The notes under the pieces are model-generated. The model was given only the letters and a program-made list of their open reading frames with translations. It searched no databases and was not told where the DNA came from. Of a DNA stretch of 64,000 bases, positions 27,674 to 29,314 are shown in pieces. Position numbers and translations under genes: made by a program. The stretch spans positions 62,298-126,297 of the forward strand of contig JACRLW010000053.1 in the NCBI GenBank assembly GCA_016235155.1, in the 5' to 3' direction. This DNA is from Planctomycetota bacterium. Its GTDB lineage: Bacteria > Planctomycetota > UBA1135 > UBA2386. Within the stretch, counting starts at the first letter, position 1; each line of letters starts with the position of its first letter.

Positions 27674-29314
<1,641 letters not shown>

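Follow-up and report, generated by a model that had tools for sequence, protein, structure and literature searches.

An amber codon at position 58 of a planctomycetotal groEL: a probable error in a draft assembly that also interrupts single-copy ribosomal genes

The closest described relative of the gene analyzed here is the group I chaperonin GroEL of the groES-groEL operon. In GroEL, residue Asp52 touches the γ-phosphate of ATP and the attacking water (PMC8440773, PMC10723157). In Myxococcus xanthus, which carries two groEL copies, either one can be deleted (PMC3578752). Two further phenomena with which an in-frame stop codon can be compared are bacterial selenocysteine decoding and the spurious pseudogenes and consensus errors of draft metagenome-assembled genomes (MAGs).

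The window, i.e., the whole analyzed stretch of 64,000 nucleotides from a Planctomycetota bacterium (contig JACRLW010000053.1 of assembly GCA_016235155.1), carries on its minus strand a groEL gene of 546 codons and a stop (27674..29314), with an intact groES open reading frame of 102 aa just upstream (29358..29666, minus). We found that the groEL reading frame is broken by one internal stop only, a TAG at codon 58 (29141..29143, or 29143..29141 in the reading sense), and is open throughout the remainder. When translated through this codon, the gene resembles group I chaperonins over its full length: the Cpn60_TCP1 domain (PF00118) spans residues 23–522 in the Pfam profile search, the flexible tail is of the same type, and the protein is 94% identical over its whole length to the orthologue of a same-genus (sister) genome. 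The gene adjoins an intact groES, and its orthologues across the order are the groES-linked copies. In contrast to the described chaperonins, the present assembly shows the TAG and, in addition, an Asp52-to-Glu change (codon 52, GAG, 29159..29161, minus). Position 58 is Lys in all 40 groES-linked orthologues of the same order, including the sister genome, and is nearly always encoded by AAG, while position 52 is Asp in 40/40, so that D52E is private to the present genome. The catalytic aspartate pair, Asp52 and Asp398, is therefore incomplete, since position 52 is Glu; no private changes were listed for the Asp398 region in the 40-orthologue comparison. These data bear out the sequence-only reading of the locus, which had described an amber codon in an otherwise intact groEL downstream of an intact groES, and they settle on Lys where it had expected either Lys or Arg.

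The source genome amounts to 5.34 Mb in 152 contigs, is 85.5% complete and contains runs of N within contigs, which marks it as a scaffolded draft that probably derives from a metagenome. The sequence-only reading had raised the possibility of several groEL copies and had proposed looking for them, and two further, divergent groEL pieces were indeed found at contig ends: the C-terminal half of one gene (C150) and the N-terminal part of another (C114). Both have their counterparts in the sister genome, where two divergent groEL genes stand intact in tandem; the intervening stretch is missing from the present assembly. Based on this correspondence, three groEL genes are very probably present in the organism, as in its relatives.

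We determined that groEL is by no means the only damaged gene of this assembly. The search combined a coding-signal scan of 1.05 Mb of the genome with subsequent profile searches; in an automatic comparison of open frames, many matches proved to be antisense shadows and were discarded. The single-copy rpsE gene (ribosomal protein S5) contains an in-frame TAG at codon 63, where relatives have Glu (G000:C147:44878, L160), and in rpsC (S3), the only match in the genome, 40 bases present in the sister are deleted, which leaves the gene in two frames (G000:C147:39983-40563). S3 and S5 are indispensable to any living cell; thus, lesions comparable to that of groEL do occur here in genes that cannot be lost. 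The dnaJ gene next to the C150 groEL fragment has lost more than 100 internal bases, which shifts the frame (G000:C150 738-1750). Premature TAG codons also lie within conserved regions of mutM (C78:12608), of an LTA4H-like aminopeptidase gene and of an endonuclease/exonuclease/phosphatase gene, the latter at a position occupied by Tyr in the sister genome, and a vWA gene has a premature TGA. Within the window, 42501-45573 (minus) matches, in two different frames, an open frame of 1199 codons from the sister; this may be a further frame break or an antisense shadow. In the sister genome, in turn, an MGMT-like gene, identified by eye from the sequence, is prematurely interrupted by a TAA (G001:C219:49115, PYGATLSYG*LARRIGRP).

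Among the broken genes found, 5 of the 6 premature stops not attributable to selenocysteine are TAG and none is TAA. This majority is what one-step changes from a GC-rich codon usage favor, as TAG is expected to make up 60–62% of one-step stops (P = 0.23–0.27 for 5/6). The present genome shows no striking surplus of private missense changes at invariant positions: the ribosomal cluster has 3 (sister, 1), and groEL has 2 in addition to the stop (sister, 1). We also considered the proximity of D52E and the stop at Lys58 as proof of a local burst of errors and rejected it, since other genomes have equally many private groEL changes.

As for the recurrence of such stops, we surveyed 151 genomes of the order using a query truncated ahead of the C-terminal tail. 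Of the about 130 groES-linked groELs listed, only two have an internal stop: the present gene and that of a relative (G080), whose TAG is 41 nt away from the end of a contig. Internal TAGs first flagged in two other genomes (G056 and G044) are in fact natural terminators only. A scan of about 85,000 bacterial and archaeal genomes with a degenerate pattern, which covered an amber at codon 58 only, gave one other match, in an alphaproteobacterial metagenome assembly from Lake Erken. The alphaproteobacterial gene reads TAG at codon 58 (L078:1294-2947), and the same genome holds a second, related groEL fragment with a Lys codon at this position. This single match fits a low uniform rate of sporadic errors or pseudogenes, and a special role for groEL codon 58 is not supported.

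At other loci of this genome, a stop codon is indeed recoded: the genome contains a tRNA-Sec (G000:C131:41665-41759) and in-frame TGA codons at the redox-Cys of a peroxiredoxin (STPGUTKE, C82:74233) and of a thioredoxin-like protein (WGINUGPC, C52:38493), while a fragment of a relative (G004:C124) reads SYAPUSPC. The lineage thus very probably makes selenoproteins, in which respect it resembles other bacteria with selenocysteine decoding. The groEL case differs in both the codon, TAG instead of TGA, and the residue replaced, which is Lys; recoding of TGA has no bearing on TAG.

We consider it quite probable that the groEL TAG arose as a consensus or assembly error in a draft metagenome, or from a minority variant that entered the consensus, and that it is not fixed in the living organism. 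This reading is favored because the same assembly breaks single-copy genes that no cell can lose, and we infer that the groEL stop has the same origin as the other lesions; we make no claim as to which sequencing or assembly step caused them. A minority sequence or an error would have entered the draft consensus at codon 58 of an otherwise normal groES-groEL operon, and the product of the true gene would be an ordinary chaperonin of 60 kDa carrying Lys at position 58. The fragmentation, incompleteness and N gaps of the draft count in its favor. Against it stand the position of groEL deep inside a 142-kb contig with no gap close by, so that a single substitution requires a local error surviving consensus, and the unremarkable number of private missense changes mentioned above. 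The main rival, which we regard as unlikely though worth serious thought, is that the groES-linked groEL of this strain truly carries a nonsense mutation and that the two further groEL genes supply chaperonin. The product would then end after 57 residues or, on a restart at Met69 (29110), lack part of the ATP-binding equatorial domain. The two groEL fragments matching the intact tandem pair of the sister, as well as the tolerated deletions in M. xanthus, agree with such a loss. D52E in the same gene and a mild, weak nonsynonymous excess on the present branch (14/30 vs. 6/42, Fisher p = 0.04) would likewise fit relaxed constraint. Yet, nearly all relatives within the order keep the groES-linked copy intact, the gene shows no second frame lesion and its remainder retains its high identity with the sister, and a nonsense allele leaves the rpsE and rpsC lesions of the same assembly unexplained.

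Readings in which the amber codon is translated fare considerably worse. If TAG specified an amino acid, whether generally or through partial suppression, full-length products would result from groEL, rpsE and the remaining interrupted genes. In favor of this, conserved genes carry several in-frame TAGs, one of them in single-copy rpsE, with no TAA among the broken genes found. However, the release factor RF1 is neither lost nor altered: its functional motifs, the anticodon-like tripeptide PAT and GGQ, are both present. TAG also remains in use as a terminator, ending 25 of the 421 coding-like frames (~6%) in the scanned 1.05 Mb, one of them at the same place in the sister genome. Within the window it ends the MoxR gene (48940-49947, plus strand; TAG at 49945..49947), with the next gene beginning at 49957. 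The search for amber-decoding tRNAs proposed in the sequence-only reading was negative, as the 39 tRNAs scoring above the family threshold include none with a CUA anticodon, an absence that is not final in an assembly of this completeness. Moreover, the replaced residues differ (Lys, Glu, Tyr), the share of TAG is as mutation predicts, and decoding could rescue rpsE but leaves the rpsC and dnaJ deletions and the vWA TGA unexplained. On the evidence from RF1, tRNAs and terminators we reject general TAG decoding, as the sequence-only reading had anticipated from ordinary TAG stops such as that of MoxR; translational recoding of the groEL TAG is very unlikely, and decoding in either form has a slight chance at best. 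Slighter still is the chance that the ambers of groEL, rpsE and mutM are real and read through by a suppressor tRNA encoded in the missing 15% of the genome, with TAG and RF1 still terminating elsewhere. Least probable of all is a programmed amber serving regulation: the alphaproteobacterial gene does have TAG at the identical codon, but it is the sole such case in the whole pattern scan, none occurs among the relatives, and its genome also holds the related fragment with Lys. Of the three causes originally listed, namely nonsense mutation, sequencing error and suppression, the broken single-copy ribosomal genes thus shift the weight strongly to error.

If the amber were real, stop codons tolerated in an essential chaperonin and in S5 would be a remarkable finding. 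As matters stand, the case advises caution: before a premature stop in a draft metagenome genome is called a pseudogene or recoding, the single-copy genes of that assembly should be examined for comparison. Our literature search for assembly errors giving premature stops in metagenome genomes found nothing. Within the preferred reading of a consensus or assembly error, the present case is known from the assembled sequence. It shares with the spurious pseudogenes and consensus errors of draft MAGs the isolated frame-breaking lesions in well-conserved, partly indispensable genes and the N-gapped draft contigs, as well as a relative whose own groEL amber sits next to a contig end.
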